A DNA stretch of 32,745 nucleotides from an uncultured Anaerolineae bacterium (GTDB taxonomy: Bacteria > Chloroflexota > Anaerolineae > Anaerolineales > Villigracilaceae): the NCBI GenBank assembly GCA_903908605.1, contig CAIVSQ010000405.1:1-32745 (forward strand), in the 5' to 3' direction. The notes under the pieces are model-generated. The model made no database searches. It saw nothing but the letters and a program-made list of their open reading frames with translations, and was not told where the DNA came from. The position numbers were made by a program, and so were the translations under genes. Positions 1,571-18,973 of the stretch are shown in pieces (position 1 is the first letter of the stretch; the number at the start of each line of letters is the position of its first letter).

Positions 1571-4558
1571 TTAGCCGCCCAGGTCGTGGTCAATCCCATT
1601 GGCCTGGGTGACCTGCCCAGCCCACAACCCAAGCACACAGCCCAACAACATGCGACCAGGGGGCAGGCTCCAAAGATAATGGTCAAACATACTGATGGTA
1701 AACAAGCCAGCCAGAGCGGCAAACAGCAGAATTATGCCCGATTGAGGTTTGCGCAAGCTGATCCAGGTCACAGAAATAGCCAACCCACCCAGCAGCAGCA
1801 TACCGCCCAGGCCTAATTCACTGGCAGCCAGAAGTACCACGTTATGAACCGGCTCGATGATATAGCCCGGTCCAGCACGTTGCGCCAGTGCAATAATAAA
1901 TGCTCCAATCCCCACCCCGCTGAATGGGCGCTCACTAAAATACTGTACCCCCTGCCCGGCCAACCAGGTGCGCCCACTCACTGAGAATGTCTCTGTTTTT
2001 ACAGGGCTATCCCCCAAGCGTGTGGCCGTCAGGTCGCGCAGCAGGAAGGCCATCAGCGCAAAACTGGCCAGTGTGACGAATAACAAAAGCAGCATGCGCC
2101 AGGGGGTGAAATGACGCGCAAACCAGGTCAACACCAGCCCAAAGACAGCCAGTCCCAACCAAGCACTGCGTGAAAACGTCAGCACCAGCAGCGCCACCCC
2201 CAAACCAATCAATCCCAAGGTGAAGACTCTGCCACGGGTCTGCACCAGGTAAAGAGAAATCAGGCTGGCCAGGCACACAAACAACACGCCAGCCAGGATA
2301 TTTGGATGCGGCAGGGTGCCATAGGCTCGCAACCAGCGTGTGCCATCGATCAGCTCGACAACACTGACACCTTTCGTGGCTGGAAGTAGATCGCCTGGCC
2401 AGTTTAGCCCGAGCGGCAACAAGAATGCGGTCGATTGGGTCCAAACCTGCCCAAATCCGGCCACCAATTGTGTCAGGAGTGCAAAGACGCTGCCAATGGT
2501 GAAACTGCGCCAGGTGGAGGGGCGATCTTGCAGTGAGAGGAACAGCCCAAAAACCAACCACCAATGCAGGCTGGTAAAGGCGGAGATACGCCAATCCTCG
2601 GACCAGAACACACTAAGGCTGGTTAATAGGCACAACCCCAGCAACCAGTTGACAGTACGGGCAAACCAGGGGTGATGATCCTGCTGCCGGGCTTGTGCAG
2701 GGCCAAAACCGCGTGCAAGGGCCCAGGCCAGCCAGGCAGATGCGGCGATAGCATCACTCAAAAATACCAGTGCGCCATCATATGTAAAGTACACACGCGC
2801 ATGGTTGTATAAAAACAAGGGGCGATGATACCAAAAACAGAGTGCTATAGGCAGCAAACCCACAAGAATGGAATGAATTGCATACAAGCTGGCTTTGCCA
2901 GTTTTGGGTTTCAATTTTATAAACGCCAGCGCACCCGCAAGGGTAAGCGATAACAAAGGAAACACACCCCAGCTAAACTGTTCCCAGGGGGTTTCAGCTG
3001 GCGGCTCAATCGACGGTGGTAAAACGGCGTTCGGGTTTTCCCAAACATCGACATGATTACTAAGCGAAGTCAGGTAGACCCAGCCATGACGCTTGAGGAT
3101 CGGGATGTAGTCGACCCGGTTGACAACCCCCCAGCGTACGCCACGCTCGCCAAGTTTTTGCAGGACAGGCTCGAGCAATTTAAAACCATCAGGCAGCCAG
3201 TAGGTTGTATCGATCTGTCCAATTCCGCTCGCGCGCAGTTCCGGTAAACCACGAGCGCTGTGGTAACTGCCATCGATGGTCGTGGCCGGTGTCAGGCGGG
3301 ATAGATAAGCGAGTTGATCTCCCAGGCCGAAAGTAACGTAGCGCCAGTCAGCCCGGTCAGCCGTCGCCAGGAAATCGACAATTGGCTGCATATCCACCTG
3401 TTCAGGCTGGGTGGGCAGCAGAGTAGGCAGCAAAGCCGAAATCAGCGCACATAAACCGAGCAGCGAAAAGAAAACCGGCGTCAATAGGCTGGCCAACCCA
3501 CGCGAAAACCTGAATCCAGAAAGACGCAGCCAGCGCCTGGAAAAGACCAGTGCATTGCCAATGAACGGCAGCATCACCCAGGATGCCCACAAGGCAAAAC
3601 GATCGTAGGTTAACCATTCCCAGCCAGAGCCAAAAAACCAGCGCGGCAGTGGGGTAGTTCCACCCAGCCCAAGTGTAAAGAGCAGCAAAAATGCGACCCA
3701 CAGGCCAAACGTTTTTCGGCACAATCCTTTCCATAAAAAGATGGGGATTAGCGGGATCAAGATGCCGTAAACTGGCAGAAAAAATGCCATGGGCGCAAAG
3801 TGGTCGACGAAAAAATTATGGCGGGAAGGGTGATCGATTGGAACTTGCATGGCCTGAAGACGACCCCAGGCCCAAAAGGGCCAAATAACGATCACGGCTG
3901 CCAGTGCCGAAAACAGGCCCACCTGCACAAGGCGCGGTAGAAATATCTTCCAACTCAGGGTTTTGTTCAAAAGCAGATGAGCAAGCAACGCCCCCAAGGC
4001 AAATGGCAGAAACAGCAAGGTGGCATGATGAGCAGCCATCACAACGGTAAAAAGGGCGACAGTCAGGCAGGCATTCAGGCTGCCGCCCTTGTGCAGATAT
4101 TCGTTCAGGGCCGAAATTGCAAAAAGGGCGAACAAACCACTTGCCAAGGTAGGCAGTTGTCCAAAAGTGTGGGCGGCCTGATAAACGGAAGGAAGCAGGG
4201 CGGCCGCCAATGCGGCATAACCTGCCACTGTCCGGCCGGCATAAACCCGTGTAAAGGCATAGGCTGCCAGCGGGTAGGCACTTAATACCAACCACAACAG
4301 CAGTCCAAAGGCTGCATCCACCCCAATGATCCGGCCCAACAAGCCGATCAGCTGGTGCGTAAGCGGTGGATAAGAAACGATCTCAAAACCGCTGTACCAG
4401 CGCGGTTCCCATAACGTCCACCAATTCAGCCGATAATGATCCCCAAAAAACATGTGGTTGTAAGCATCATAGCTCAACCGGTAACGCGCGCTGAGCACAA
4501 ACACGCCCTGCAAGATAAAAGCCAGCAGCGTGGCCAGCCGAACCCTGCGGGGAATCAC
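1571..4558 (-). CDS. Large multi-pass membrane protein with C-terminal O-antigen-ligase (WaaL/Wzy) domain
   Basis: A 995-residue integral membrane protein with two membrane domains. Residues 1 to about 370 hold many hydrophobic segments and resemble the uncharacterised '6-pyruvoyl-tetrahydropterin synthase-related' membrane family. A soluble, probably extracytoplasmic stretch follows at about 385-520, then a second membrane block from about 540. The C-terminal part carries O-antigen ligase signatures: 'GTLPHPNILAG', a 'LTFSRSAWLGL' helix, 'GRTWLAGQGVQYFSERPFSG' and 'EPVHNVVLLAASELG', which contains the conserved His-Asn of Wzy_C-type ligases and polymerases. O-antigen ligases are usually about 400-500 residues, so this is roughly twice normal. 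It starts with GTG and overlaps the upstream glycosyltransferase stop by 4 bp (GTGA), implying translational coupling. Probable role: polymerising or transferring a lipid-linked glycan outside the membrane. The ligase half is fairly sure, the N-terminal half is a weaker call. Confidence 0.8.
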   Translation of the reverse strand: MIPRRVRLATLLAFILQGVFVLSARYRLSYDAYNHMFFGDHYRLNWWTLWEPRWYSGFEIVSYPPLTHQLIGLLGRIIGVDAAFGLLLWLVLSAYPLAAYAFTRVYAGRTVAGYAALAAALLPSVYQAAHTFGQLPTLASGLFALFAISALNEYLHKGGSLNACLTVALFTVVMAAHHATLLFLPFALGALLAHLLLNKTLSWKIFLPRLVQVGLFSALAAVIVIWPFWAWGRLQAMQVPIDHPSRHNFFVDHFAPMAFFLPVYGILIPLIPIFLWKGLCRKTFGLWVAFLLLFTLGLGGTTPLPRWFFGSGWEWLTYDRFALWASWVMLPFIGNALVFSRRWLRLSGFRFSRGLASLLTPVFFSLLGLCALISALLPTLLPTQPEQVDMQPIVDFLATADRADWRYVTFGLGDQLAYLSRLTPATTIDGSYHSARGLPELRASGIGQIDTTYWLPDGFKLLEPVLQKLGERGVRWGVVNRVDYIPILKRHGWVYLTSLSNHVDVWENPNAVLPPSIEPPAETPWEQFSWGVFPLLSLTLAGALAFIKLKPKTGKASLYAIHSILVGLLPIALCFWYHRPLFLYNHARVYFTYDGALVFLSDAIAASAWLAWALARGFGPAQARQQDHHPWFARTVNWLLGLCLLTSLSVFWSEDWRISAFTSLHWWLVFGLFLSLQDRPSTWRSFTIGSVFALLTQLVAGFGQVWTQSTAFLLPLGLNWPGDLLPATKGVSVVELIDGTRWLRAYGTLPHPNILAGVLFVCLASLISLYLVQTRGRVFTLGLIGLGVALLVLTFSRSAWLGLAVFGLVLTWFARHFTPWRMLLLLFVTLASFALMAFLLRDLTATRLGDSPVKTETFSVSGRTWLAGQGVQYFSERPFSGVGIGAFIIALAQRAGPGYIIEPVHNVVLLAASELGLGGMLLLGGLAISVTWISLRKPQSGIILLFAALAGLFTISMFDHYLWSLPPGRMLLGCVLGLWAGQVTQANGIDHDLGG

Positions 4559-5727
4559 ATGCTCTCCGGTAAGAGGTGGATGCGCTTAGAACTACGGCAA
4601 GTTTCGAGCGCCAGGTTAAAAGCCTGCAGGTATGTTCGGCATGTGTCTTGCGGCAGGCTGCGCTGCATGGCGGCAAAATTTTGCTCCACCTGTTTTCGAC
4701 GCGCCTCAGGAGAGGCCAGGCCAGCTTCAAGTACCTTCGCCAGATCGGCGGCGTTACCGCGCTCAAAAAAACTGACATCCAGGCCGCTTTCGGCTGTGAT
4801 CGCGCACGTCTCGGGCAGATCAGAAGCCACCACAGGCCGGCCCCAGGTCGCTGCCTGGTATAAAATACTGGATGAGCCGGTGGAGGCGTTGTATGGCAGT
4901 ACCACCAGCTGGGCATCCAGGAACAAACCGCGAACAGCTTCTTCAGCCACCTGTCCAAGCCAGCGTACGCCATTTAATCCCTGGTACTGGTTACGCAAGA
5001 GGCCAGCGTAGCCAGGAAAACGGGCATGTTCCGTTCCGGCGATGGTCAGGCGCAAACCGGGGTGACGAGGCTGCAACATTTGGAAGGCATCCAGCAGCAC
5101 TTCCAAACCTTTGAAAGGTGCCAAAGTGGTAAAAAAGAGCAGTTCGGGTGACGGCCCGGCGGGCAATAGCTCAGGTGCGTTATAAGCCCCGATGGGGATG
5201 TGCCTGCTCAATACTGTTGGCCGGTGAACAGCCAGCCAATCAATATAGCGCTGCATGGTCAGGCAGACAACATCAGCCTGCAGCCCAAGACTGGTCAGCA
5301 AGCGGGCCCCATGCCTGGCAAAAGGTCCACCGGGTGCTTTTAATGCCGGCAAGTCCGCCAATTCCACCAGTTCGTGCAGGGTGACGACGGTTGGGATACC
5401 CATGCGGCGAACCAGCCCCAGAGAGAGAAAGCCGGATAAATTGGCCAGCGGCGAACGTCCAAAAACACTCGCCCCCAGGTTAAACCAGACCAGGTCTGGT
5501 TGCAATTCACGAATATGCCGGGCGATTTCCCAACCAGCCAGGGAGCTTTCCGGACTCCATCCTGCTTCAACCCGCAAGGCCCCAGGAAGTGCACGTGGAC
5601 TGCCGCCACTTAGCACTGTGATATGCGAAAAAGCACCCGAGGCCGCCAAAGCAGCACTAACATGGTAACCATACTGGCCGATGCCGGTAATATTGGGTGG
5701 AAACGGGCTGACAATCGCGAGGTGCAT
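4555..5727 (-). CDS. Glycosyltransferase, GT-B fold, family 4-like
   Basis: About 390 residues of a retaining GT-B glycosyltransferase, which would add a sugar from a nucleotide-sugar donor on the cytoplasmic face. The N-terminal domain opens with 'HLAIVSPFPPNITGIGQYGY', the Gly-rich acceptor-domain loop common in GT4 enzymes. The donor domain contains 'TLAPFKGLEVLLDAF' and, late in the protein, 'STGSSSILYQAATWGRPVVA', corresponding to the usual E-x7-E region but with Ser/Gln variation. Three starts are possible: TTG at 5766, ATG at 5739 and ATG at 5727. I chose 5727 because a GGA lies 7 nt before it and it begins at the family's first strand. It overlaps the large membrane protein by 4 bp, so the two form a glycan-assembly operon, divergent from the cluster at 5888. 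Confidence 0.87.
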   Translation of the reverse strand: MHLAIVSPFPPNITGIGQYGYHVSAALAASGAFSHITVLSGGSPRALPGALRVEAGWSPESSLAGWEIARHIRELQPDLVWFNLGASVFGRSPLANLSGFLSLGLVRRMGIPTVVTLHELVELADLPALKAPGGPFARHGARLLTSLGLQADVVCLTMQRYIDWLAVHRPTVLSRHIPIGAYNAPELLPAGPSPELLFFTTLAPFKGLEVLLDAFQMLQPRHPGLRLTIAGTEHARFPGYAGLLRNQYQGLNGVRWLGQVAEEAVRGLFLDAQLVVLPYNASTGSSSILYQAATWGRPVVASDLPETCAITAESGLDVSFFERGNAADLAKVLEAGLASPEARRKQVEQNFAAMQRSLPQDTCRTYLQAFNLALETCRSSKRIHLLPESM

Positions 5728-5817
5728 AAGTTTTTCCATTATGACGAATTCAGACCGTGCTTTCAAGCAATAATGGTTAGAATTTTCGATGAGTTTTTCG
5801 TTTTTACAGGTTGGAAA

Positions 5818-5846
5818 TTGACATTACCCGCGCTGCGTTGTACTAT
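5818..5846 (+). promoter_or_regulatory. Sigma-70-type promoter for the 5888-11145 operon
   Basis: TTGACA at 5818-5823, a 17-nt spacer, and TACTAT at 5841-5846: a consensus -35, ideal spacing and a good -10. Transcription would start near 5853, giving a leader of about 35 nt before the ATG at 5888. It is the only clear promoter seen for the five overlapping genes that follow. Confidence 0.75.
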
Positions 5847-5887
5847 GATGCTATTGTATTTGTAAATTATACTCAAATGGTCCTATT

Positions 5888-6784
5888 ATGGAAAACTCCG
5901 ACGTCTCAATCCACAAAGCCATATTAAAGACCGTGCTCTACGCGGATATTTTTGATTACCCGCTCACCTTCGATGAATTACACCGCTACCTGGTGGATAT
6001 CAATCTGTCGCGAGAACAACTGGCCGAACAACTGCGCCAAGATCAATTTCTGACCCAGTCGGGGGGATATTTTACCTTACCGAGGCGGGAAGAACTCATC
6101 CAAAAACGGGCTGCACGCGAAGGACAAGCTGTGTTGTTATGGCGGGAGGCGAATCGCTTTGGCCTCATCCTCAGCAAGATGCCATTCGTCCGCATGGTGG
6201 CAGTCACCGGCTCATTGGCCATGAACAACGTTGAACGCAGCGCGGACATCGATTACCTGGTCGTGACCACCCCCGGGCGTTTGTGGCTTTGCCGCCTGGG
6301 TATTCTTGTGCTGGTACGCCTGGCCGCCCTGCGCGGGGTTTCTTTGTGCCCTAATTATATGCTGAGCGAGCACGCATTGGAAATTCCGGCCCATTCACTT
6401 TACTCCGCGCATGAATTCACCCAGATGGTGCCACTTTCGGGGTTGGAAATTTATCAGCGTATGCGGCAATTAAACCCATGGGTAATGGATTACCTGCCCA
6501 ACGCGCACGGTCTGCCCTCCCTGGCAAGTAAAATAACTGCATCAACCACACGACCTGTAATACGCAGACTCCTCGAGCTAATCCTGCGTACCGCCGCCTT
6601 TGATTGGATGGAAGGCTGGGAAATGAAACGCAAAATTTCCAAGCTGTCCGCACAAAATAAAGACAACCCTGAATCACAATTCACCGCCGAACTATGCAAG
6701 GGACACTCCAGCCGGCACGGTCAGCGCACCACAGTTTCGCTGAACGAAAGACTGGCTTTCCTCGAACAGGAGTTAATTCCATGA
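5888..6784 (+). CDS. Nucleotidyltransferase-fold protein
   Basis: A 298-residue protein with a minimal nucleotidyltransferase core. Residues 107-127 contain the pol-beta-type signature: Gly108-Ser109 of the G-S loop, then the 'ADIDYLVVT' strand giving metal-binding Asp120 and Asp122. A third carboxylate is not obvious. The N-terminal 75 residues form a predicted winged-helix-like domain ('AILKTVLYADIFDYPLTFDE'). Proteins of this build often sit in polysaccharide or lipid-modification clusters; their substrate is unknown. It is the first gene of a five-gene operon, and its TGA overlaps the radical SAM start by 4 bp. It could nucleotidylate a small molecule or protein, or be a non-catalytic relative. 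Family call good, role unknown. Confidence 0.75.
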   Translation: MENSDVSIHKAILKTVLYADIFDYPLTFDELHRYLVDINLSREQLAEQLRQDQFLTQSGGYFTLPRREELIQKRAAREGQAVLLWREANRFGLILSKMPFVRMVAVTGSLAMNNVERSADIDYLVVTTPGRLWLCRLGILVLVRLAALRGVSLCPNYMLSEHALEIPAHSLYSAHEFTQMVPLSGLEIYQRMRQLNPWVMDYLPNAHGLPSLASKITASTTRPVIRRLLELILRTAAFDWMEGWEMKRKISKLSAQNKDNPESQFTAELCKGHSSRHGQRTTVSLNERLAFLEQELIP

Positions 6785-8346
6785 GCGAAATCCTGCTGGG
6801 CCAATCGTATTATTTACGCTTTGACCCCAAGCTGTGGCAACAAATGCAGCCCTACGCACCGCTCGGTACACTATACGCTGCCAGTTACCTGCGCCAGCGT
6901 GGTTACGAGGTGGCTCTATTCGACGCCATGCTGGCAGAATCGGAACAGGAATGGGACCTGGCCCTCGAGAAACACAATCCCAAATTCGCTGTGCTTTTCG
7001 AGGATAATTTCAACTATCTCTCAAAAATGTGCCTGCTGCGTATGCGTGAAGCGGCCTTCAGCATGATCTCAATGGCACACAAGCGCGGTTGCACAGTGAT
7101 CTTGTGCGGCGCCGATGCCACTGATCATGCCGACCTGTACCTGGGGCAAGGAGCTGATTTTGTCCTGCTTGGGGAAGGTGAACAAACCCTGGTCGATCTG
7201 CTAGACAAGCTCACTGATCGCACACAGCAAAGCCTTGAAGCCATCGCCGGCCTCGCCTACACGCACAGTGCTAACAGCGTGCCTGGCACTCATATTAACC
7301 CACGCCGTCCAGACCTGAAAAATCTCGATTCTTTGCCCTTTCCGGCCTGGGACCTGGTGGATGTGGCCCGCTACCGGTCGATCTGGCTGGAGCGGCATGG
7401 CTATTTTTCGATGAACATGGTCACCACGCGCGGTTGTCCGTTTCACTGCAATTGGTGCGCCAAACCGATCTGGGGACAGCGTTACAATACGCGCAGCCCA
7501 GAAAATGTGCTCGCCGAGCTACGTTGGCTGCAACAGACCTACCAGGCTGAGCATATCTGGTTTGCCGATGATATTTTCGGCTTGAAGCCAGGCTGGCTGT
7601 CCCGTTTTGGCGAACTGGTGCAGGCTGGTGGCGGCTTACCGTTTAAATGCCTGAGCCGGGCCGACTTACTGACCCGCCCGGGTGAAGTGGACGCGCTAAA
7701 ACGCGCAGGTGCACAAACCATCTGGATGGGCGCGGAGTCTGGATCTCAAACGGTCCTGGATGCGATGGACAAGGGCACCCGCGTGGAACAAATCCGCGCC
7801 GCAGCCCAACAACTAAAGGCAGCCGGCATCCGCGCCTGCTTCTTTTTGCAATTCGGCTACCCAGGCGAGACACGCGCTGATATTGAAAAAACCATCCAGC
7901 TTGTGCGTGATTGCGACCCGGATGATATTGGCATTTCGGTATCGTACCCGATGCCAGGCACAAAGTTTTTCTCAGCGGTGAGCGAACAGCTTGGTGAAAA
8001 GCAAAACTGGCACGATTCAGATGACCTGGCCATGTTGTATCAGGGTCCTTACCCAACCGATTTCTATCGAAAACTACACAGTGTCATTCACAAAGAATTT
8101 CGCGCGCGCAAAGCATTGCACTCCATACACCGATTGCTATCAGGGAATAAATCACAGGGACCTGCCAGCCAAAAAATACAGGTCTCGGCGCTGCGCAACC
8201 TGGCCCGCCTGGTGTACAACACACTCAGCCTGCCAATTGCTCGCTGGCAGTTGGACAAACTTGCCGCCCGGCCTGCAGCTGTGCTCAGTCTGCCTCACCT
8301 CAACCCTGATCAGGCCGCCCAACCCACGCCCCAGGAGTCACTATGA
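6781..8346 (+). CDS. B12-binding-domain radical SAM protein
   Basis: A 521-residue class-B-type radical SAM enzyme. The N-terminal domain (about 20-145) has the cobalamin-binding Rossmann shape ('PLGTLYAASYLRQRGYEVAL' and 'GADFVLLGEGEQTLVDLL') but lacks a DxHxxG cobalt-ligand His, as many members do. The radical SAM core starts at about 212 with 'TTRGCPFHCNWC'; Cys219, Cys223 and Cys226 form CxxxCxxC for the 4Fe-4S cluster. 'GAESGSQTVLDAMDKGT' is the typical mid-barrel motif. Relatives methylate or rearrange unactivated carbons in lipids, hopanoids or natural products. The ATG at 6781 overlaps the preceding stop (ATGA); an earlier in-frame ATG at 6694 lies inside the upstream gene and is unlikely. 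It also overlaps the next gene by 4 bp. Family certain, substrate unknown. Confidence 0.9.
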   Translation: MSEILLGQSYYLRFDPKLWQQMQPYAPLGTLYAASYLRQRGYEVALFDAMLAESEQEWDLALEKHNPKFAVLFEDNFNYLSKMCLLRMREAAFSMISMAHKRGCTVILCGADATDHADLYLGQGADFVLLGEGEQTLVDLLDKLTDRTQQSLEAIAGLAYTHSANSVPGTHINPRRPDLKNLDSLPFPAWDLVDVARYRSIWLERHGYFSMNMVTTRGCPFHCNWCAKPIWGQRYNTRSPENVLAELRWLQQTYQAEHIWFADDIFGLKPGWLSRFGELVQAGGGLPFKCLSRADLLTRPGEVDALKRAGAQTIWMGAESGSQTVLDAMDKGTRVEQIRAAAQQLKAAGIRACFFLQFGYPGETRADIEKTIQLVRDCDPDDIGISVSYPMPGTKFFSAVSEQLGEKQNWHDSDDLAMLYQGPYPTDFYRKLHSVIHKEFRARKALHSIHRLLSGNKSQGPASQKIQVSALRNLARLVYNTLSLPIARWQLDKLAARPAAVLSLPHLNPDQAAQPTPQESL

Positions 8347-9146
8347 GCGATCCGTTCGGGACCATCGCCGAAGCTTTCTCTCGCACGGCTGAAAAATATG
8401 ACGCCTTCGCGCTGGATCATCCCAACCAGTCGCGCATGCGCAATCGCGTATACAAACACATTGAACACCACACCCCAGCCGGGTCACGCATCCTCGAATT
8501 AAACGCGGGCACAGGCACAGATGCAGCCGAACTGGCCAGGCGCGGTTACAGCGTACACGCCACTGATATTGCGCCCGGAATGTTGGCGCGGGCACGAGAG
8601 AAAGCGGCCCAAACTGAATTGCGCGGTCGCATGAGTGTGCAGGCATGCTCCTTTACAAACCTGGAACAGGTCGAAGGTGGGCCATATGATGCCATATTTT
8701 CGGACCTGGGCGGGCTGAACTGCATCCCGGATCTTTCACCCGTCATAGAGCAGCTGCCGCGCGTGCTGAAACCTGGCGGGCTGGTCACCTGGGTAATCAT
8801 GCCACCAGTATGCTTGTGGGAAATGGCCGAAATTTTTCGCGGTCACCCGCGCCTGGCTTTCCGGCGGTTTGCTCGGCATGGAACACGCACGCATCTTGAA
8901 GGGCTGTACTTCACCTGTTATTACTTTACCCCGCGCCAGGTGCAGAACTGGTTTGGCCCAAACTACGAGACACTTTCAGTAGAGGGTCTTTCGGTCTTTA
9001 CGCCAACAGCCGAAAGCAAGAATCTTGCCAAGCGCCACCAGGCTTTTTACAACAGCCTGGCCTGGCTGGATGACCGGCTGTGCACACGTGCCCCTTTCCG
9101 GTCCTGGGGCGATTTTTTCATTATCACTTTGCGACACCGGTTGTGA
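8343..9146 (+). CDS. Class I SAM-dependent methyltransferase
   Basis: A 267-residue cytosolic methyltransferase. Motif I is 'ILELNAGTGTDAAELARRG' (about 50-68), with the Gly-rich SAM loop; acidic motif II is 'VHATDIAPGMLARAREKA' (about 71-88), whose Asp would hold the ribose. A 'FSDLGGLN' segment (about 118-125) and 'LPRVLKPGGLVTWVI' match motifs III and IV. It overlaps the radical SAM gene by ATGA and the flippase by GTGA, so all three are probably made together. This suggests a modified lipid or glycan intermediate that is methylated and then exported. The acceptor atom cannot be told. Confidence 0.9.
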   Translation: MSDPFGTIAEAFSRTAEKYDAFALDHPNQSRMRNRVYKHIEHHTPAGSRILELNAGTGTDAAELARRGYSVHATDIAPGMLARAREKAAQTELRGRMSVQACSFTNLEQVEGGPYDAIFSDLGGLNCIPDLSPVIEQLPRVLKPGGLVTWVIMPPVCLWEMAEIFRGHPRLAFRRFARHGTRTHLEGLYFTCYYFTPRQVQNWFGPNYETLSVEGLSVFTPTAESKNLAKRHQAFYNSLAWLDDRLCTRAPFRSWGDFFIITLRHRL

Positions 9147-10372
9147 AAAACCTGGCCCGTCATTCACTGTGGTTATTGGGCTCCCGCCTGGCCGCCCAGG
9201 CAGGCATGGCCGTCTTCAGCATCCTGGTGGCGCGCAAATTGGGCAGCGCTGCTTTTGGCGAGTATGCACTGATCGCTGCTCTGCTGGTCATCGGCAATCT
9301 GCTGAGCACCTTCGGCACCGATATGCACCTGGTTCGCGAAATCGCCGCCCATGGGGACCTGCGCCCGCTCTTACCTGCGCTGATTGTGCAGCTTGGGCTG
9401 GCGGCCATGTTGGCGATGGCTGTTTTTACGTTGGCTCCACATTTATCGGCCCAAGGCTCAACCGCCCTGCGCATATATAGTTTTTCGCTCTTCCCTTTGG
9501 CGTTTTTTACCGTCTTTAGCACCGCTTTACGTGGCAAGCAACAAATGAGCGCTATTGCCCTGCTCAACTTGTTACTTGCTATTATGCAGGTTTCGGCCGC
9601 AGTGGGTCTGTACTGGATGAATGGCAACCTGGTCAGCCTGGCCTGGTGTTTGCTGGCCATCCAGGTCATGACAGCCATCACGGCCGGGGTCATCTGCCTG
9701 CAAGTGATCCCTGGCTTCATGGAACCCTGGCGGCAAATCCAGCCAACCGCCATTCGTAGCCTGATTGCAGCCTGTGCTCCCATGGCCTACCTTTCCATCA
9801 CCATTGTTTTTTACCAACGACTTGCCCAGGTTTTGTTACCCTTCCTGGCGGGCGCAACCCCGGCCGGGCACTTTTCGGTGGCAGCCCGCCTGCTGGAAGT
9901 GGCTAAAATAGGACATGTCGCCGTTTTTACTGCTATTTACCCGATGCTCTCCAAAAAAACCAGCGACGGTCCTGCAGTGCTACCCTGGGGAATGCTGCTC
10001 GGGGCGACCGCCCTGGGTGCGGTGACGCTAACTTTGCTGGCAAACCCGCTCATTTCATGGTTATTTGGCAGCGAATACCTGCCGGCTGTCCCAGTTCTGC
10101 GCATACTGGTTTGGAGCCTGCTGCCTTATACGGTCAGCAACCTTGGTTCCCTGGCTTTACTGGCAGAAAAACAGGAGAGCGCCGTTGCGCGGACTGCCAG
10201 CCTTAGCCTGCTAGTACTGGCCGGGCTGTTGTGCTGGTGGGGCTGGCTGTCCGGTCCCCAAGGCGCAGCGTGGGCTATTTTGACTGCTGAGAGCTTGCAA
10301 TGCATGCTACTTTTGAACAAATTTAATCATTTACGCAACAGGCAGGCTCTGGCTGCCGGGAGGTCCTGGTGA
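9143..10372 (+). CDS. Wzx-like polysaccharide/lipid flippase (MOP superfamily)
   Basis: About 409 residues with roughly 12 hydrophobic helices. The N-terminus 'SLWLLGSRLAAQAGMAVFSI' followed by 'ARKLGSAAFGEYAL' is typical of Wzx/RfbX flippases that move lipid-linked oligosaccharides across the inner membrane. I place the start at GTG 9143 because it overlaps the methyltransferase stop as GTGA, matching the other junctions in the operon, and begins at the family's usual N-terminus. An in-frame ATG at 9080 would add 21 residues inside the methyltransferase. Together with the divergent O-antigen-ligase-like gene it supports a surface-glycan locus spanning both strands. Confidence 0.87.
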   Translation: MKNLARHSLWLLGSRLAAQAGMAVFSILVARKLGSAAFGEYALIAALLVIGNLLSTFGTDMHLVREIAAHGDLRPLLPALIVQLGLAAMLAMAVFTLAPHLSAQGSTALRIYSFSLFPLAFFTVFSTALRGKQQMSAIALLNLLLAIMQVSAAVGLYWMNGNLVSLAWCLLAIQVMTAITAGVICLQVIPGFMEPWRQIQPTAIRSLIAACAPMAYLSITIVFYQRLAQVLLPFLAGATPAGHFSVAARLLEVAKIGHVAVFTAIYPMLSKKTSDGPAVLPWGMLLGATALGAVTLTLLANPLISWLFGSEYLPAVPVLRILVWSLLPYTVSNLGSLALLAEKQESAVARTASLSLLVLAGLLCWWGWLSGPQGAAWAILTAESLQCMLLLNKFNHLRNRQALAAGRSW

Positions 10373-11145
10373 ATTTCCCCGTTTACCCTGAAAAACATAC
10401 CCTCACAGCGCTGTATGGTGCTGCGGATATTGTCCGCTACCGCAAACAGATCGGGCGAATGCCCAAGCTGCCAAACCCGGATGGAATTTTGTTCTGCCTG
10501 GAGCGTGGCCTGCCATGGCGGCTGCGCTGGCGCATCCCTGTCGAACGAGTCGGTGGGATGAACGGCGACTTGTTTGCGTTGAAGAAACCCAAGGGCCGGG
10601 TTGGCATCATGACGGGCTTCGGCGGCGGCTCACCCATGACAGTGGAGCTGGCAGAAGAATTCGCAGCCATGGGCGTCAAACGCATGATTCTATTGACCTG
10701 GGGCGGGCTGCTGCAACCGGGCATGCAGGCCGGCGATGTGGTCATCATCGACCGCGCCATCCGCGATGAGGGCACTTCCTATCATTACCTTCCCCCTGAC
10801 AAATACGTGCATGCCAGCCCACGCCTGGCCAATGCCCTTGAGGCCGCCATACACGCCCGCGGTGGCACTTGTACGCGCGGAACCACCTGGACCACAGACG
10901 CCCCTTACCGTGAAACCCCAGAGGAAATCCGTCAGTACCAAAGCGAGGGTGTCAAAACAGTCGAAATGGAATCTGCCGGTTTGTTCACCATTGGGCAAGT
11001 ACGCGGGCTGGAAACCGTCTCGGTGGTGGTTGGGATGGACAGCCTGGCTGAATTTCGCTGGCAGGTACCCGACCGACTGGATGGCATCCTCAAATCGTTG
11101 GAACTGGTGTACGCGGCCGCACTGGATGTGCTGAAAGAAGCGTAA
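10369..11145 (+). CDS. Nucleoside phosphorylase-like protein (PNP/UDP family)
   Basis: A 258-residue protein of the nucleoside phosphorylase/MTAN superfamily. Visible features are the Gly-rich phosphate loop 'GFGGGSPM' (83-90), 'MILLTWGGLLQPGMQAGDVV' (106-125) corresponding to the GT-x-GGL strand, and 'VEMESAG' (198-204), whose Glu201 would bind the ribose hydroxyls. The last positions of a uridine phosphorylase active site cannot be assigned. It starts with GTG overlapping the flippase stop (GTGA), so it closes the operon. It may recycle nucleoside or thio-nucleoside by-products of SAM or nucleotide chemistry in the cluster. That link is inferred from position only. Confidence 0.85.
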   Translation: MNFPVYPEKHTLTALYGAADIVRYRKQIGRMPKLPNPDGILFCLERGLPWRLRWRIPVERVGGMNGDLFALKKPKGRVGIMTGFGGGSPMTVELAEEFAAMGVKRMILLTWGGLLQPGMQAGDVVIIDRAIRDEGTSYHYLPPDKYVHASPRLANALEAAIHARGGTCTRGTTWTTDAPYRETPEEIRQYQSEGVKTVEMESAGLFTIGQVRGLETVSVVVGMDSLAEFRWQVPDRLDGILKSLELVYAAALDVLKEA

Positions 11146-11180
11146 TCAATAGCCAGGCGGACTGAACCTCAATATCAAAT

Positions 11181-11222
11181 AAAACGTGCTAGTGACAGAG
11201 GAAGCAGCCACTAACACGTTTT
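11181..11222. terminator. Bidirectional intrinsic terminator between convergent operons
   Basis: AAAACGTG at 11181-11188 pairs with CACGTTTT at 11215-11222. After one mismatch, TAGTG at 11190-11194 pairs with CACTA at 11209-11213, leaving a 14-nt loop. The A and T tracts on both flanks suit termination from either side, as expected between the phosphorylase and anti-sigma genes. Confidence 0.75.
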
Positions 11223-11246
11223 GTGATTAATCCTTTTAGTTCGTGG

Positions 11247-11978
11247 TTAAAAATCCACCTTAAAAACCCGCGCCCCGGTTGGCTGAGGACTGCCACCGGC
11301 AGGTTCCACGGTTACACCCAGTCCAACATACTTCGCCAGGCTGCCCGTCACCTGTACTTCGATGGAAGTGAAAGCAGAGCCAGCGTTGGCCGCGAATACT
11401 CCCGCGCTGGTACGGCCACCCTGTGGATCGATCAGCCATATCTGGTAACTCTGTTCACTGGGAAGAGCCGGCAAATCCCATGCCAGGATGACTGCAGCGC
11501 TGCGTTCCTTGTCCAGCAAGATCGTTCCGGCCAGGCCATCGGCGTGAATGGGAACAGTTTTTGTTTCAGGGTAAGCCAACATGGCCAACGCCACGCGATC
11601 TGTTTCCAGTTGGCGCGATTGCTTTGCCTGGATACTTCGCAAGTTTTGGAACTGAAAAAAAGAAGAAATGTTTAACAATAACAACAGAAAAATTAACGCT
11701 GCCATCCCTACCTGTGGAAGTGACCAACTCCACCAGGCCTGTTTCGTAACCAGGTTGGCTGGCAGGCGGTTTTGCAATTGCCTACGCAAAGAAAGAGGTG
11801 GCCGCACAGGCGGGATTGCCTTCAACAAGGTTTCGCTTACCGCGCGAAAAGAAGCCAGTTCTGCCTGGCAGGTCGGGCAGCCAGGCATATGAGCTTCCAG
11901 CGCGATCCTAGAGTCACGATCCAGAGCGCCAATCGCATATGCGGGGATATCATCAATGTAGGGATGTTCAATAGACAT
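11247..11978 (-). CDS. Transmembrane anti-sigma factor, zinc-finger/RskA-like
   Basis: About 243 residues. The cytoplasmic N-terminus has an anti-sigma zinc-binding pattern, His30-x3-Cys34-x2-Cys37 in 'EAHMPGCPTCQAEL'. A single membrane helix lies at about 89-108 ('GMAALIFLLLLLNI'). The outer part (about 115-243) resembles the RskA/anti-sigma-K C-terminal domain, with 'YQIWLIDPQGGRTSAGVF'. It should hold the sigma factor encoded just upstream and release it on an extracytoplasmic signal, probably through regulated proteolysis. I start at ATG 11978, preceded by GAGAG; an upstream TTG at 11990 is less likely. The gene follows the sigma gene by 38 bp on the same strand. Confidence 0.88.
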   Translation of the reverse strand: MSIEHPYIDDIPAYAIGALDRDSRIALEAHMPGCPTCQAELASFRAVSETLLKAIPPVRPPLSLRRQLQNRLPANLVTKQAWWSWSLPQVGMAALIFLLLLLNISSFFQFQNLRSIQAKQSRQLETDRVALAMLAYPETKTVPIHADGLAGTILLDKERSAAVILAWDLPALPSEQSYQIWLIDPQGGRTSAGVFAANAGSAFTSIEVQVTGSLAKYVGLGVTVEPAGGSPQPTGARVFKVDF

Positions 11979-12016
11979 TTTGTCTCTCAACCATTAATAC
12001 GTTATTAAATCGGTTT

Positions 12017-12559
12017 TTAGATTTCGCTTTCAATCCAAATCTTACGCAGGTGTTCCATTGCTGCACGAAGACGGGTTTTAACCGTGCCCAATGGCCAACC
12101 AAGGATTTCGGCGATTTCGCTCTGGCTCATGCCCTGGTAATAAGCCAATTCAAGCACCTGGCGTTGATCGGTGGGCAGGGCCTGGACAGCCAGGTGCATG
12201 CTGCGCCAGCGGGATTCTTCCGAAGAAGTTCCACTGGCGGGGATGTCCCGCCAGAGATCTTCGGGATCACTACCATCTGACAAGGTCGGCCGGCGGTCTT
12301 CAAGACGTAATCGGTCCAGCGCAGTGCGTCGCGTGATGGTCAGCAGCCAGGTCACCAACGAGCCGCGCTCTGCCAGGAATTGTCCGGCATGCTTCCACAG
12401 TTTTAAAAATGCATCCTGGGTGGCCTCTTCGGCCAGCATGGGTTCATGTAAGACGCGCAAAGCAAGAGTATAGACCCGGCCAGCATGGCGATCATACAAT
12501 GCCAGGAATGCGCGCTGGTCTCCTTTAACGACCTGCTTTAATAATTCAGTATCTTCCAT
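12017..12559 (-). CDS. ECF-type RNA polymerase sigma factor (sigma-70 family)
   Basis: About 180 residues with the two ECF regions. Region 2 (about 20-85) includes 'FLALYDRHAGRVYTLALRVL' and 'AEEATQDAFLKLWKHAGQF', the -10-binding helices. Region 4 (about 125-175) has 'LPTDQRQVLELAYYQGMSQS' and the helix-turn-helix 'EIAEILGWPLGTVKTRLRAA' that reads the -35. Two starts are close: GAGG is only 1 nt from the ATG at 12568 but 10 nt from the ATG at 12559, so I prefer 12559. The downstream anti-sigma gene makes a classical sigma/anti-sigma pair. The divergent secreted protein at 12732 is a candidate target. Confidence 0.93.
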   Translation of the reverse strand: MEDTELLKQVVKGDQRAFLALYDRHAGRVYTLALRVLHEPMLAEEATQDAFLKLWKHAGQFLAERGSLVTWLLTITRRTALDRLRLEDRRPTLSDGSDPEDLWRDIPASGTSSEESRWRSMHLAVQALPTDQRQVLELAYYQGMSQSEIAEILGWPLGTVKTRLRAAMEHLRKIWIESEI

Positions 12560-12718
12560 GTCGGCCATACCTCAATTGTACCGAATAAATTCGATCAGGA
12601 TATGAATTAGCCCTATTCGAAAACCAATTTGGATAATTTAGACCTTCTTTGAAATCCAATTTCGCATCGAGTGACGTACTAATAAATGCAACCCACTTTA
12701 CCGGTTATCAAATCATAC

Positions 12719-13447: not shown

Positions 13448-13567
13448 ATGTCAAGCGCTCCGAGCCAGGTAATCAATGAAAGTGCAAAACAAGGGACATC
13501 GATTGAACGATTTCAACAAGATGAATTCTCTTTTTCTAATCATCCCATTCGCTGGAGCATGCCATGA
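13448..13567 (+). CDS. Small ORF (39 codons), coupled to the aldehyde dehydrogenase gene
   Basis: An ATG at 13448 preceded by GGAGG at 13434-13438 (9-nt spacing) opens a 39-residue frame that ends in a TGA at 13565-13567, overlapping the dehydrogenase ATG (ATGA) by 4 bp. The peptide starts 'MSSAPSQVINESAKQG' and ends 'NHPIRWSMP'. It is hydrophilic, with no membrane segment or signal, and I do not recognise it. The strong ribosome binding site and the exact stop/start overlap argue that it is translated. It may be a small protein or serve to load ribosomes onto the downstream gene, whose own GGAG lies inside this ORF's end. Confidence 0.55.
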   Translation: MSSAPSQVINESAKQGTSIERFQQDEFSFSNHPIRWSMP

Positions 13568-15087
13568 ATAGCCTTCTTGAAAAACTAAATATCCAACCCA
13601 TAAATGCTGGTGCCTGCACTGGTCCGGGTGGCTGGCTGATGGATAGCAAAGGCAAGGAACTTGTCTCTTATAACCCATCCAGCGGCGAACCACTGGCTAC
13701 TGTCATCCAGGCCAGTGCTCAAATCTACGAACAAGTGGCAACCAGTGCTCAGCAGTCATTTTTATCCTGGCGATTGAGCCCAGCTCCCAAGCGCGGCGAG
13801 GTTGTGCGCGACCTTGCCAATGCACTGCGGGAATACAAAGAACCGCTTGGCGACCTGGTCAGCCTGGAAATGGGGAAAATCCGTGCCGAAGGACATGGCG
13901 AAGTACAGGAAATGATCGACATCTGTGATTTCGCTGTGGGGCAGTCACGCATGCTATACGGCCTGAGTATGCACTCTGAACGGCCGTCACACCGCATGAT
14001 GGAACAGTGGCATCCGCTCGGTGTCGTTGGTTTGGTGACGGCGTTCAACTTTCCGGTGGCTGTCTGGTCATGGAACTCGGCCCTGGCAGCCATCTGCGGG
14101 GATACCGTGCTTTGGAAACCCTCTTCGTACACCCCATTGACCGCCATCGCAGTAACCCACATCACCAACCGGGTGCTAGCAGATCATGGATTGAGTGGTA
14201 TTTTTAACCTGGCGATCGGCTCGGGCCGCGAGGTGGGCGAGCTGCTGCTCAATGACCGGCGCGTGCCGCTCATTTCGTTTACCGGCTCCACCCAGGTCGG
14301 CGTGCACGTTTCTGAAGCCGTCGCCCATCGATTTGGTCGTACCATCCTCGAGTTGGGCGGCAACAACGCCATCATCGTCTCAGAAAAAGCTGACCTTGAA
14401 ATGGCCACCCGGGCAATCTTGTTTGGGGCCGTTGGCACTGCCGGTCAGCGCTGTACCTCCACCCGGCGCATCATCGTTCATAAATCCATCTCCGCGGATC
14501 TCACTCAGCGGCTGGTGAAGGCTTACCAGCAAGTACGCATTGGCGACCCGCTCCAACCGGGCACGCTGATGGGTCCCCTTGTGGTGGCTTCATCAGTAGA
14601 GGAAATGATGGATGCCATCCGCCAGGCAGTTGCCGATGGCGGGCAGGTGGTAAGCGGTGGGCACATGCGCCCCGAGCTGGGGTCCAACTTTGTTGAACCG
14701 ACCATTATTCGAATGCCTGCCCAAACAGACATCGTAAAAACCGAGACATTTGCGCCGATCTTATATTTACTCGAATATGAAACAGTCGAGGAAGCGATCA
14801 ACATTCACAACGACGTTCCACAGGGACTTTCCAGCGCCATGTTCACCGATTCGCTGCGCGAAGCGGAAGCATTTCTTTCTGTAGCCGGCTCGGACTGCGG
14901 CATTGCGAACATCAACATCGGCACTTCCGGTGCGGAGATCGGTGGCGCTTTTGGCGGCGAAAAAGAAACCGGTGGCGGGCGCGAATCGGGCTCGGATGCC
15001 TGGAAGACCTATATGCGCCGGCAAACCAATACCATCAACTGGTCCAGCGACCTGCCCCTCGCCCAGGGAATCAAGTTTGGCGAATAA
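13564..15087 (+). CDS. Aldehyde dehydrogenase, ALDH7/antiquitin type (aminoadipate-semialdehyde or piperideine-6-carboxylate dehydrogenase)
   Basis: A 507-residue NAD(P)-dependent aldehyde dehydrogenase. Oxyanion Asn162 is in 'TAFNFPVAVWSWNSA', general base Glu263 in 'ILELGGNNA', and catalytic Cys297 in 'GTAGQRCTSTRR'. The C-terminal 'GGEKETGGGRESGSDAWKTY' and the N-terminal 'NAGACTGPGGW' are hallmarks of the ALDH7 group, which oxidises alpha-aminoadipate semialdehyde (in equilibrium with piperideine-6-carboxylate) in lysine breakdown. Length is normal. No other lysine-catabolism gene is adjacent, so a broader aldehyde role is possible. The start overlaps the small upstream ORF; a GGAG lies 6 nt before it. 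Expression may depend on the hairpin leader at 13359-13428. Confidence 0.93.
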   Translation: MNSLLEKLNIQPINAGACTGPGGWLMDSKGKELVSYNPSSGEPLATVIQASAQIYEQVATSAQQSFLSWRLSPAPKRGEVVRDLANALREYKEPLGDLVSLEMGKIRAEGHGEVQEMIDICDFAVGQSRMLYGLSMHSERPSHRMMEQWHPLGVVGLVTAFNFPVAVWSWNSALAAICGDTVLWKPSSYTPLTAIAVTHITNRVLADHGLSGIFNLAIGSGREVGELLLNDRRVPLISFTGSTQVGVHVSEAVAHRFGRTILELGGNNAIIVSEKADLEMATRAILFGAVGTAGQRCTSTRRIIVHKSISADLTQRLVKAYQQVRIGDPLQPGTLMGPLVVASSVEEMMDAIRQAVADGGQVVSGGHMRPELGSNFVEPTIIRMPAQTDIVKTETFAPILYLLEYETVEEAINIHNDVPQGLSSAMFTDSLREAEAFLSVAGSDCGIANINIGTSGAEIGGAFGGEKETGGGRESGSDAWKTYMRRQTNTINWSSDLPLAQGIKFGE

Positions 15088-15334: not shown

Positions 15335-17959
15335 TTACTCAATAACACGGACAATCCCATTCGATCCATCCACTTCCACCAACTGACCATCATGCAGAAT
15401 AGCGGTCGCCTCATCCACCCCAGAGACGCACGGGATGCCATATTCACGTGCCACCACCGCGCCGTGCTGCAATGCACCACCAATTTCAAGGACGATACCG
15501 CCAGCATTAATAAAGAGAGGTGTCCAACCAGGGTCCGTTGCCCGCGCCACCAGGATTTCACCAGGCAGTATTTTCTTTTCTGATGCGTATTGAAGCACTT
15601 TGACCCGACCGCGGACAATTCCTGGCGAAATAGGCACGCCACTCAATTCACCATTTTCGGTGGCACGATGGGGGGGATAAAATATTTTTCCACGGGAATC
15701 GATAATTCGCACCACCAGCTTGCTCTTTCGGGTCTTGTCCGTAAGGATGGTGCCCTGCTTTGCCAACATGCGCAGATTCAAATCCGGTTCAATAACCGCT
15801 CGATCGATGTCAGCAATCGTCAGGTCAAATATCTGACTGGGATCATCCAGGCGTCCAGCCACAACCATCTGTCTACCAATCGACAATGCCTGCCTGCGAA
15901 AAAGGTTAATCACTGTTCTTACGTAATGCTTGGGGGTCTCACGAAACCCTCCCAGGGTCAGCCAGGTTTTATAGTACTGCTCAAATGAACGGGCTTTGTT
16001 TTTACTCTTTTTCAACGCAATGGTATAAAGGGCCTGGTAAGCACTTTCCCGCCTGGCTCGCGCCTCCACAAAAAAGGAGCTGGACTCTTTTATGCCGGTT
16101 GCCATATGCTTGAGCTGATCGAAAAACATGCCGGGTTGCTCAGACAGACGAGCGATGGCGGGGTCGATTTCACCCGGGCAGCGCATTCCATATTCAGCCA
16201 GGAAATTGCGCCAGTCGCGGGCAAAATCCGGGGTCACAGTTCCGTTTTCGAGTGCTTCGAGAAATTCATCTGCATGTCCAAAACGCCGCAATTCCACCGA
16301 ATTGGCCAACGCATACATCGCCTCGCCCATTTCTGTCGTCTTGTTACCCGGTAGCGATATTCCTAAATTGGTCAGGTAATCCTGCACCTGGGTTGATTCT
16401 CCTTGGAAAATATCTTTGATGCGTTGCTGCGCAATTTGCGCCGCCAAAATCATCGGAATGCCATATTCACCGTAAAAAAAGCTCAACAGATCAGCAAGCT
16501 GCACAGCGCATGCCTGCAAAGTGAAGCCACCCCCAGAAAATGCTTCAATTCGACGAAGTTCTCCTGGCAAAGCTGCCTGATATTTTTGCAGGATATGACC
16601 TGGACGGAGATAAGCTGACAATACTGCTCCGGCCATCGGAAGCATCTTGAACATCATTTTGCCACGCACAGATTTCAACCGGGCAGGAAGCTGGCCACCC
16701 AGGTAATGTTTCATATCGATCCCGTCAAGAATAGCGGTCACACGTGGATCGCCCAGGCTGCCGGGGGCAAGAGCGGCATTTTTCATGCCCAACATATATG
16801 CGAATGAAATGTTCATATAATAACGGCCACCAGCAGCAAAGGTGATTCCGTCGGGGCCAATGGCCCCTTCCGCAATCGGGCCACCAACTATATTCAAAAG
16901 GTATACCAGAAAATCGGTACCCAATATTGAGATGGGATCTTGTAAACCCTGTTCAATCAGGGTGGAATTGGCATACAAGCGCTTGGGCTGCCCAGGGGCT
17001 GTGGTCATTTCAGCGGGAAGAGGCAAGTAGGTGGTAATGGGTCGCGCCTGCAGGAGGGAAAATTTTCCTTCAGAAAATGCCCATTCGATGTCAACTGGTT
17101 TTTTGTAATAATTCTCCACTTTTTCGAGCAGGCCTGTTAGCTCCAAAACCTGGGCCGAAGAAAGGGCGGGTTGCTGGGGACTTTCGTGCATTTCACGCGT
17201 GGTACCGCCAGTTTTATTCAACCTGGTAATGACCTGCTTGCCACCGATACGCGTCTCGATAATTTCAGAACGCAGCTTATCTACCACGAAATAATCGGGG
17301 TCCGCTTCACCCGAAACAACCGACTCGCCCAGGCCGTGATTGGCATTAATCACCGCTTCATCAAAGCAGTTGTTAAGCGGGTTGATGGAAAATGCCACGC
17401 CTGCACAATTGGCATCGACTTGCTGCTGCACAACCACAGCAATAGACCTATCGTCCAGGGTAAAGCCATGTTCTCTTTTATATAAGAGAACACGCTCATC
17501 AAAACTGGAAGTGAACGAGTGGCAAACAGCCAGCTCGATCGAATCTGTGGTCACCCCGAGGGTAGTTTCATAGCCGCCCGCAAAAGAAGCTCCCTCCAGA
17601 TCTTCTTCCGGCGAAGAAGATCGTACAGCATATAACGCCGCTGGGGTTGCAGCAGCCAGGCCTGAGAGAGCCTCCGACAGTGCAGATTTCATCTCAATCG
17701 TGAATTCCAACAAATGACAGGCACTTTTCAGCGTAGCAGACCAGCGGGAAAGTTCGGCCTCATCGGAACCCAGCCGGGCATCCCAGGCTGGCTGCTGCCG
17801 TAATTGATCCATCCATGGGTCAAAAAAGCCGACTGCCAGGACAAACCCAGCGGGAACTGGCAGATTGGCCTGAGTCATTTGCATCAGGGCCAGACCCTTG
17901 CCACCCACTTCATCCAGGCCGGGCAGGTCTATTGAGTTGAAGTTATAAATCGTACGCAC
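15335..17959 (-). CDS. Rifampin phosphotransferase-like PEP-utilising enzyme (PEP synthase superfamily)
   Basis: An 874-residue, three-domain enzyme. The N-terminal ATP-grasp domain (about 1-315) has Lys21 in 'VGGKGLALM' and Arg113 in 'YAVRSSSPEEDLEGASFAGG'. A long middle domain (about 320-750) is the variable acceptor-binding region. The C-terminal swivelling domain carries the phosphoryl-transfer His832 in 'GGALQHGAVVAREYGIP'. Length and domain order fit rifampin phosphotransferase (about 867 residues), not PEP synthase, which has a C-terminal PEP-binding barrel missing here. Such enzymes use ATP to phosphorylate a small molecule. Homologues occur widely where no rifampin is met, so the natural acceptor is open. 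It starts at GTG with GGAG 7 nt upstream. The divergent TetR gene and the palindrome between them suggest inducible control. Confidence 0.85.
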   Translation of the reverse strand: MRTIYNFNSIDLPGLDEVGGKGLALMQMTQANLPVPAGFVLAVGFFDPWMDQLRQQPAWDARLGSDEAELSRWSATLKSACHLLEFTIEMKSALSEALSGLAAATPAALYAVRSSSPEEDLEGASFAGGYETTLGVTTDSIELAVCHSFTSSFDERVLLYKREHGFTLDDRSIAVVVQQQVDANCAGVAFSINPLNNCFDEAVINANHGLGESVVSGEADPDYFVVDKLRSEIIETRIGGKQVITRLNKTGGTTREMHESPQQPALSSAQVLELTGLLEKVENYYKKPVDIEWAFSEGKFSLLQARPITTYLPLPAEMTTAPGQPKRLYANSTLIEQGLQDPISILGTDFLVYLLNIVGGPIAEGAIGPDGITFAAGGRYYMNISFAYMLGMKNAALAPGSLGDPRVTAILDGIDMKHYLGGQLPARLKSVRGKMMFKMLPMAGAVLSAYLRPGHILQKYQAALPGELRRIEAFSGGGFTLQACAVQLADLLSFFYGEYGIPMILAAQIAQQRIKDIFQGESTQVQDYLTNLGISLPGNKTTEMGEAMYALANSVELRRFGHADEFLEALENGTVTPDFARDWRNFLAEYGMRCPGEIDPAIARLSEQPGMFFDQLKHMATGIKESSSFFVEARARRESAYQALYTIALKKSKNKARSFEQYYKTWLTLGGFRETPKHYVRTVINLFRRQALSIGRQMVVAGRLDDPSQIFDLTIADIDRAVIEPDLNLRMLAKQGTILTDKTRKSKLVVRIIDSRGKIFYPPHRATENGELSGVPISPGIVRGRVKVLQYASEKKILPGEILVARATDPGWTPLFINAGGIVLEIGGALQHGAVVAREYGIPCVSGVDEATAILHDGQLVEVDGSNGIVRVIE

Positions 17960-18934: not shown

Positions 18935-18963
18935 TTGACTCTCGTGTTTAATCCTTGTATTAT
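18935..18963 (+). promoter_or_regulatory. Sigma-70-type promoter of the 19022-32734 operon
   Basis: TTGACT at 18935-18940, a 17-nt spacer, and TATTAT at 18958-18963. One mismatch from consensus in each hexamer at ideal spacing. Transcription would start at about 18970, giving a leader of about 50 nt. Confidence 0.7.
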
Positions 18964-18973
18964 TTTATTTACT

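Follow-up and report, generated by a model that had tools for sequence, protein, structure and literature searches.

A conserved gene pair for a probable nucleotidyltransferase-like protein and a B12-binding radical SAM enzyme in a putative surface-glycan locus of an Anaerolineae bacterium

The window analysed here, a stretch of 32,745 nucleotides from an uncultured Anaerolineae bacterium (assembly GCA_903908605.1, contig CAIVSQ010000405.1, below C405), carries five co-directional genes, A to E, at 5888-11145. The best-supported conclusion from comparing their sequences with those of related genomes is that the first two genes, encoding a probable nucleotidyltransferase-like protein (A) and a B12-binding radical S-adenosylmethionine (SAM) enzyme (B), form a conserved two-protein module, which would be the most constant part of the locus. 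This module at the core of the locus appears to be undescribed so far. We consider it likely, with a probability of about 0.6, that the genes surrounding it make up a surface-glycan locus of the Wzx/Wzy type, in which the A-B module would alter a sugar or a lipid-linked glycan by radical chemistry. The contig belongs to a 5.77-Mb assembly of 612 contigs, which is about 91% complete.

Gene A (5888..6784, plus strand) encodes 298 amino acids and is followed by gene B (6781..8346, plus strand; 521 amino acids), and the surroundings of A were compared in three samples, whose loci and genomes are denoted by L and G numbers. For the class sample, 150 genomes of the same class were searched for A, which was found in 33 of them including the window's own genome, leaving 32 other loci. 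A scan of a species-genome collection gave 379 relatives of A, the best 80 loci of which were fetched, a set that leans to close kin and overlaps with the class-sample loci (for example L030/L055, L034/L066, L035/L073, L037/L085 and L040/L098). The phylum sample of 301 genomes gave 31 matches to A, 20 strong (E-value 1.2e-90 or better) and 11 weak; 13 strong loci not previously covered and five weak loci were fetched, which leaves out the strong match in G367 and six of the 11 weak ones. Locus counts were taken from tblastn maps, and clusters 11, 17 and 18 of the open reading frames (ORFs) are antisense artefacts of mechanical ORF picking. The A match of L027 and the B match of L042 are split, possibly owing to assembly errors. 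Titles of 77 of the best 80 loci name Chloroflexota, counting some named taxa that we take to be members of this phylum, and the remaining three carry the labels Acidobacteria, Gemmatimonadetes and Elusimicrobia. The A-B pairs on the contigs so labelled (L093, L112 and L128) could reflect transfer out of Chloroflexota or misbinning.

At 72 loci of the best-80 set the start of a radical SAM gene is found no more than 1 kb downstream of A (at 61 of them with at least 45% identity), and three of the eight misses lie at contig ends, while one has B 1.07 kb on. For six flanking genes of the window, used as a control, matches were found in 0, 0, 2, 3, 1 and 1 of these 80 loci. In 26 of the 32 class-sample loci the gene directly 3' of A, in the same orientation, encodes a B12-binding radical SAM protein; in seven of the 26 (L021, L030, L032, L033, L035, L038 and L039) this protein is related to B at 34-38% identity and is not the B orthologue. 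Five class-sample loci have no adjacent radical SAM gene (L017, L020, L026, L045 and L047), and L044 ends at the contig edge. Of the 13 strong phylum loci, eight have their radical SAM gene in the first 1 kb downstream of A. In four of the five weak, distant loci (L156, L157, L158 and L170) a 30-31% relative of B is encoded 3.8-4.0 kb downstream in the same orientation as A, and in L157 a GT2 gene lies between the two. A and the B orthologue occur together in 24 of the 150 class genomes, A being present in 33 of them and B in 28 (Fisher p = 1.5e-16); this p-value, like that for co-variation given below, is uncorrected for relatedness and is therefore optimistic, because related loci are not independent. 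Conservation of the neighbourhood had been set beforehand as the test that could refute the original prediction, and its outcome is favourable for A with B and, as described below, for D with E.

Gene fusions involving A also occur. At three loci, L065 (798 amino acids), L096 (835 amino acids) and L105 (806 amino acids), A and B are continuous in a single ORF that has no internal stop. The fusion in L065 may be a base-calling artefact, because Met is kept at the join; those in L096 and L105 lack this Met and are mutually consistent, and because their neighbours are shared they count as one lineage. In L046, A is fused to a GT4 glycosyltransferase (750 amino acids). At L154 (5718-8450) and L155 (6687-8537) A stands at the end of far longer open frames (910 and 616 amino acids, respectively), which gave no Pfam match.

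Protein A gave no Pfam or NCBIfam match at E ≤ 0.01, and there is one match to it in the window's own genome. Its motif, the weak profile matches of its relatives and a structure model indicate that it is probably nucleotidyltransferase-like. The window protein has an exact GSX10DXD motif at residues 108-122 (6209..6253, plus strand). In the alignment of 69 sequences, which comprises the window protein and 68 of 79 complete A ORFs (L054, L065, L083, L084, L089, L096, L105, L111, L114, L116 and L122 were left out as fusions, as near-duplicates or to keep the alignment small), the Gly and the D-x-D are invariant in all 69 proteins, the spacing is 11 residues in 57, and Ser follows the Gly in 34. 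Against the A portion of the fused L096 protein, the NTP_transf_2 profile scores 18.6 bits, below its cut-off of 21. The model calculated from the 69 aligned sequences (mean predicted local distance difference test score 94.6, predicted template modelling score 0.91) consists of an N-terminal winged-helix-like part, a nucleotidyltransferase-like domain and a C-terminal helical part. Toxin-antitoxin structures of the HEPN/MNT type lead its Foldseek matches, the best with an E-value of 2.3e-3 and none below 0.001. VIA-align places it closest to the aminoglycoside nucleotidyltransferase ANT 6un8 (Z 7.8, root-mean-square deviation 3.2, 114 residues aligned) and the kanamycin nucleotidyltransferase 1kny (Z 7.6), followed by DrrA (6.1) and GS-ATase (5.2), and the winged helix-turn-helix matches of the N-terminal part, 7ne9 and 3mq0, both reach only Z 3.6. 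According to a passage of PMC7641770, the GSX10DXD motif of MntA is needed for the transfer of adenosine monophosphate (AMP) and agrees with the GX11DXD of other AMPylators, GS-ATase and DrrA being named there. With these adenylyltransferases A shares the motif and probably also the nucleotidyltransferase-like fold, and it has a presumed partner encoded alongside; it differs from the MntA type in its predicted additional N-terminal and C-terminal parts, in Asn156, and in having a radical SAM enzyme rather than a HEPN toxin as the partner.

Protein B exceeds the Pfam cut-offs of both Radical_SAM (77.7 bits, cut-off 29.5) and B12-binding (34.2 bits, cut-off 32.1), and its CxxxCxxC motif (CPFHCNWC, 7435..7458, plus strand) is shared by all 15 aligned B proteins. 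It stays under the curated cut-off of every NCBIfam family among the 25 listed of the 30 matched. The best-scoring family is HpnJ (TIGR03471; 124.3 bits, cut-off 577.6), followed by BchE (TIGR02026; 123 bits, cut-off 481.35) and by TIGR04072, a model for lipid biosynthesis (120.7 bits, cut-off 360). B has the architecture of these enzymes, B12-binding plus radical SAM with CxxxCxxC, but scores of 120.7-124.3 bits against cut-offs of 360-577.6 and a different gene context set it apart from all three. Four solved relatives of B were found, among them the radical SAM protein 9ccb and AprD4.

Gene C (8343..9146, plus strand) encodes a class I SAM-dependent methyltransferase of 267 amino acids according to Pfam. 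Gene D (9143..10372, plus strand; 409 amino acids from the GTG at 9143) encodes a Wzx/MOP-type flippase, with a Polysacc_synt match of 71.4 bits (cut-off 28.2; E-value 1.1e-19), and gene E (10369..11145, plus strand; 258 amino acids) a nucleoside-phosphorylase-like protein with a PNP_UDP_1 match. The identities originally proposed for B to E are each matched by Pfam in this way. In the best-80 set, matches to the window genes beyond the module were found for C in 50 loci, the 995-residue Wzy_C protein described below (LIG) in 41, E in 20, D in 19 and the divergent glycosyltransferase in 12, and the order A>B>C>D>E is kept in 13 of these loci and in four of the 32 class-sample loci (L018, L023, L024 and L041).

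D and E vary together: among the 56 loci whose sequence extends at least 6 kb beyond A in the downstream direction, both are present in 15, D only in two, E only in four and neither in 35 (p = 2.7e-8). Counting genes downstream on the strand of A, E occurs in none of ten loci with at least two radical SAM genes and in 19 of 46 loci with at most one. Full-length E matches of at least 40% among the 150 class genomes lie at the locus in five genomes including the window's, and in G057 on a contig other than that of A. The reading that best fits these patterns of sequence matches is that the flippase and E form a co-varying add-on to the A-B module. The coupling of radical SAM chemistry to a flippase, as originally predicted, accordingly describes one variant of the locus and not its core, because D and E are optional. 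Three loci (L070, L101 and L128) have three or four B12 radical SAM matches per gene run beside A, without matches to the flippase or E.

The top Foldseek match of the E model is the methylthioadenosine phosphorylase (MTAP) of Sulfolobus, with a template modelling score of 0.78 by query and 0.85 by target. E shares the fold and the Pfam match of the MTAP/uridine phosphorylase family, but it lies under the cut-offs of all 14 NCBIfam families listed, including HpnG (TIGR03468; 23.7 bits, cut-off 187.1), MTAP (TIGR01694; 19.9 bits, cut-off 274.85) and methylthioadenosine/S-adenosylhomocysteine nucleosidase (NF004079; 15.9 bits, cut-off 169), and its phosphate site is also without the canonical Arg, which presumably binds phosphate together with a Thr or Ser three residues on. 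The Arg, aligned to the Sulfolobus MTAP, is missing in 24 of 24 locus copies of E, and the Thr is kept in two of the 24 (L096 and L105). Loss of the Arg was considered as a trait specific to the locus and rejected, as it is also missing in the 15 non-locus E paralogues fetched (of 25 partial matches). The window's genome holds six other PNP_UDP_1 genes.

Divergent from A to E lie a GT4 glycosyltransferase gene (4555..5766, minus strand; Pfam) and the gene for LIG (1571..4558, minus strand), whose C-terminal Wzy_C (O-antigen ligase/polymerase) domain scores 55.7 bits, over its cut-off of 31.7. Proteins of the Wzy_C family can be ligases, polymerases or oligosaccharyltransferases. Of the glycosyltransferase and ligase expected in the divergent pair, the former is therefore borne out, and for the latter the domain is present but 'ligase' is one of its meanings. 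This divergent arrangement recurs in eight of the best 80 loci, and two layouts are recurrent: the window type, in which GT4 and Wzy_C genes diverge from A-E, and an in-line type with the order Wzy_C-GT2-A-B-C-D-E. A third set has at least two radical SAM genes in tandem and no E. By Pfam, the neighbours in related loci include GT2 and GT4 glycosyltransferases, Wzy_C proteins and second methyltransferases. With the flippase, these surroundings fit a surface glycan, so that the proposal of a surface glycan or lipid modified by radical chemistry can be kept in part. The clustering of a flippase, a Wzy_C protein, glycosyltransferases and methyltransferases is also what makes the locus resemble O-antigen and exopolysaccharide loci of the Wzx/Wzy type; unlike in those, an unclassified protein and a B12 radical SAM enzyme are the most constant components here, the flippase is found in 19 of 80 loci, and no initiating transferase was seen in the window.

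A pathway can be proposed on this basis, in which both the glycan as product and the order of steps, also relative to export, are presumed. The glycosyltransferases (the divergent GT4 here, further GT4 and GT2 enzymes in relatives) would assemble a lipid-linked glycan. B, in a complex with A, would act on an unactivated carbon of a sugar or of the lipid-linked glycan, either by C-methylation or by a rearrangement, and A might prime the substrate or adenylylate a partner. C could add further methylation to the product, D would flip it, and the Wzy_C protein would either polymerise it or attach it to the final carrier. E, which goes with the variant that has the flippase, would most likely process a nucleoside or nucleotide-derived intermediate of the pathway. 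The original prediction knew of no described pathway with this gene set, and searches aimed at it in a library of open-licence papers of PubMed Central (PMC) gave no paper on it, which does not prove its absence from print. A more specific version, which we hold to be improbable, is that A is an active AMP transferase dedicated to its B12 radical SAM partner, adenylylating either B, as an on/off switch, or the sugar substrate for B; in the variant with D and E, E would then strip the base and leave a ribosyl-phosphate mark on the glycan. In both cases A and B would be a nucleotidyltransferase-radical SAM module serving the assembly of surface glycans, for which the literature searched has no described counterpart.

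Several observations weigh against the proposed surface-glycan module. The flippase and E are absent from most A-B loci, and none of the window's genes was recognised as one for an initiating phosphoglycosyltransferase; the genome has seven Bac_transf matches, none of them on C405, and the PF00953 type was not searched. Three strong phylum loci (L161, L162 and L169) have their radical SAM gene 1.06-4.7 kb off, L160 has one upstream only, and none was found in the 3.2 kb downstream of A at L166, which is also a strong locus, or in 7.2 kb at the weak locus L171. Separate contigs with different neighbours carry A and the B orthologue in G019, G055, G107 and G146; the two are on separate contigs in G047 too, but there A is at a contig edge. 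No A was found in G037, G069 and G096 despite 45-48% relatives of B, nor in G085 despite a 71% B on a 3.2-kb contig. As for A itself, all its structure matches have Z below 8, so that the fold by itself is no proof, and Asn156 occupies, in 69 of 69 A proteins, the third-strand position of the nucleotidyltransferase fold, where we take an acidic residue to be expected in many active members.

Alternatively, the pathway might yield a modified membrane lipid, either hopanoid-like or with another isoprenoid head group, for which E would act like HpnG and B like HpnJ. HpnJ heads the families matched by B, TIGR04072 reaches 120.7 bits for B, and HpnG matches E with 23.7 bits; however, the respective cut-offs of 577.6, 360 and 187.1 are missed by far. 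The lipid alternative is further weakened because a hopene cyclase is absent: the genome, whose assembly is about 91% complete, gave no match to the C-terminal domain of squalene-hopene cyclase (PF13243) and none to HpnH that exceeded the cut-off. Since the Wzy_C protein and several glycosyltransferases favour a glycan, we regard a lipid product as quite unlikely, and a hopanoid or ladderane lipid pathway was rejected as the principal explanation on account of the missed cut-offs and the lack of a cyclase and of HpnH over its cut-off. It could also be argued that the locus is a loose surface-polysaccharide island, whose genes are neighbours through frequent exchange and share no common reaction. 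The gene content around A-B is variable, the variants with several radical SAM genes and with a flippase differ, and the correlations of identity are only moderate for A-B (r = 0.59, 52 loci), A-E (0.36, 17 loci) and B-C (0.42, 24 loci). Adjacency of A and B in 72 of 80 loci, the A-B and A-GT4 fusions, the co-variation of D and E and their identity correlation of 0.74 (14 loci) nevertheless make this explanation unlikely.

Two further alternatives concern single genes. E might be a house-cleaning nucleosidase for 5'-deoxyadenosine and S-adenosylhomocysteine, the by-products that B and C form from SAM, which is compatible with the surface-glycan pathway as far as A to D are concerned. Radical SAM enzymes are inhibited by 5'-deoxyadenosine, as stated in the abstract of PMC8102628, the best Foldseek match of E is an MTAP, and the missing Arg in all 24 locus copies would suit hydrolysis. 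The distribution of E is the opposite of what clean-up predicts, and the role is weakened, though not dropped, since none of the ten loci with more than one radical SAM gene carries E, against 19 of the 46 others. Moreover, the Arg is lost in non-locus paralogues as well, the genome has six other PNP_UDP_1 genes, and the cut-offs of the MTAP and nucleosidase families lie beyond E, so that this function can be entertained only tentatively. For A, the exact GSX10DXD motif and the HEPN/MNT structures at the head of the Foldseek list (best E-value 2.3e-3) would be in line with a toxin-antitoxin-like or other regulatory pair, comparable to MntA with HepT. No HEPN-domain gene was found among the Pfam-scanned neighbours of A, however; its neighbour is a radical SAM enzyme that resembles metabolic ones and stands amid biosynthetic genes, which makes such a pair very improbable.

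The A-B module offers a concrete entry point for further work, being patchy across the phylum (20 strong A matches in 301 genomes), usually adjacent and sometimes fused. It consists of two uncharacterised proteins with a directly testable partnership and is a possible route to new radical-made sugars, and the locus supplies a context for protein A, which matched no Pfam or NCBIfam model. To our knowledge, the surface glycans of Chloroflexota have been little studied.

The ORF coordinates agree with the description of 5888-11145 as five co-directional ORFs overlapping at each junction, by ATGA at 6781-6784 and 8343-8346 and by GTGA at 9143-9146 and 10369-10372. The overlaps indicate an operon, as far as sequence can tell, yet they are not its remarkable feature, because 4-bp overlaps are common in the window: the divergent GT4/Wzy_C pair is itself joined by one (4555-4558), as are the junctions at 23053-23056, 25786-25789, 26778-26781 and 30416-30419. 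The overlaps were for this reason rejected as a noteworthy signal. Counting the compared loci and the window together, 43 of 95 A-B, 18 of 44 B-C, seven of 14 C-D and five of 19 D-E junctions would permit a 4-bp overlap. The intergenic region between the divergent units (5767..5887) holds a promoter-like site, TTGACA-17-TACTAT, at 5818-5846 on the plus strand. A consensus scan of 4400-12700 gave nine promoter-like sites against 5.2 +/- 2.4 in shuffled sequence. A transcription start near 5853 is plausible, because the site at 5818-5846, a consensus match only, is the sole one in 4400-12700 with a perfect -35 hexamer.

Immediately 3' of E, the opposite strand of the window encodes an RskA-type anti-sigma factor and an extracytoplasmic function (ECF) sigma factor (11247-12568, minus strand). 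Similar ECF sigma/anti-sigma-like pairs lie upstream of A in L096 and L105, and such a pair was considered as a possible regulator. The window also holds an aldehyde dehydrogenase gene (13564-15087, plus strand), scoring 775.8 bits against the cut-off of 730 for L-piperidine-6-carboxylate dehydrogenase. The gene at 15335-17959 (minus strand) encodes a protein of 874 amino acids with PPDK_N and phosphoenolpyruvate-utiliser domains at opposite ends and a long middle part without a confident family. At 18134-32734 (plus strand) lies a catabolic-looking run led by a TetR gene, which includes a CocE/NonD hydrolase gene and enoyl-CoA hydratase-like, muconate-cycloisomerase-like and agmatinase-like genes, together with a distant relative of methylcobalamin:coenzyme M methyltransferase, a second TetR/BetI-like regulator, a dipeptidase and an EamA transporter.

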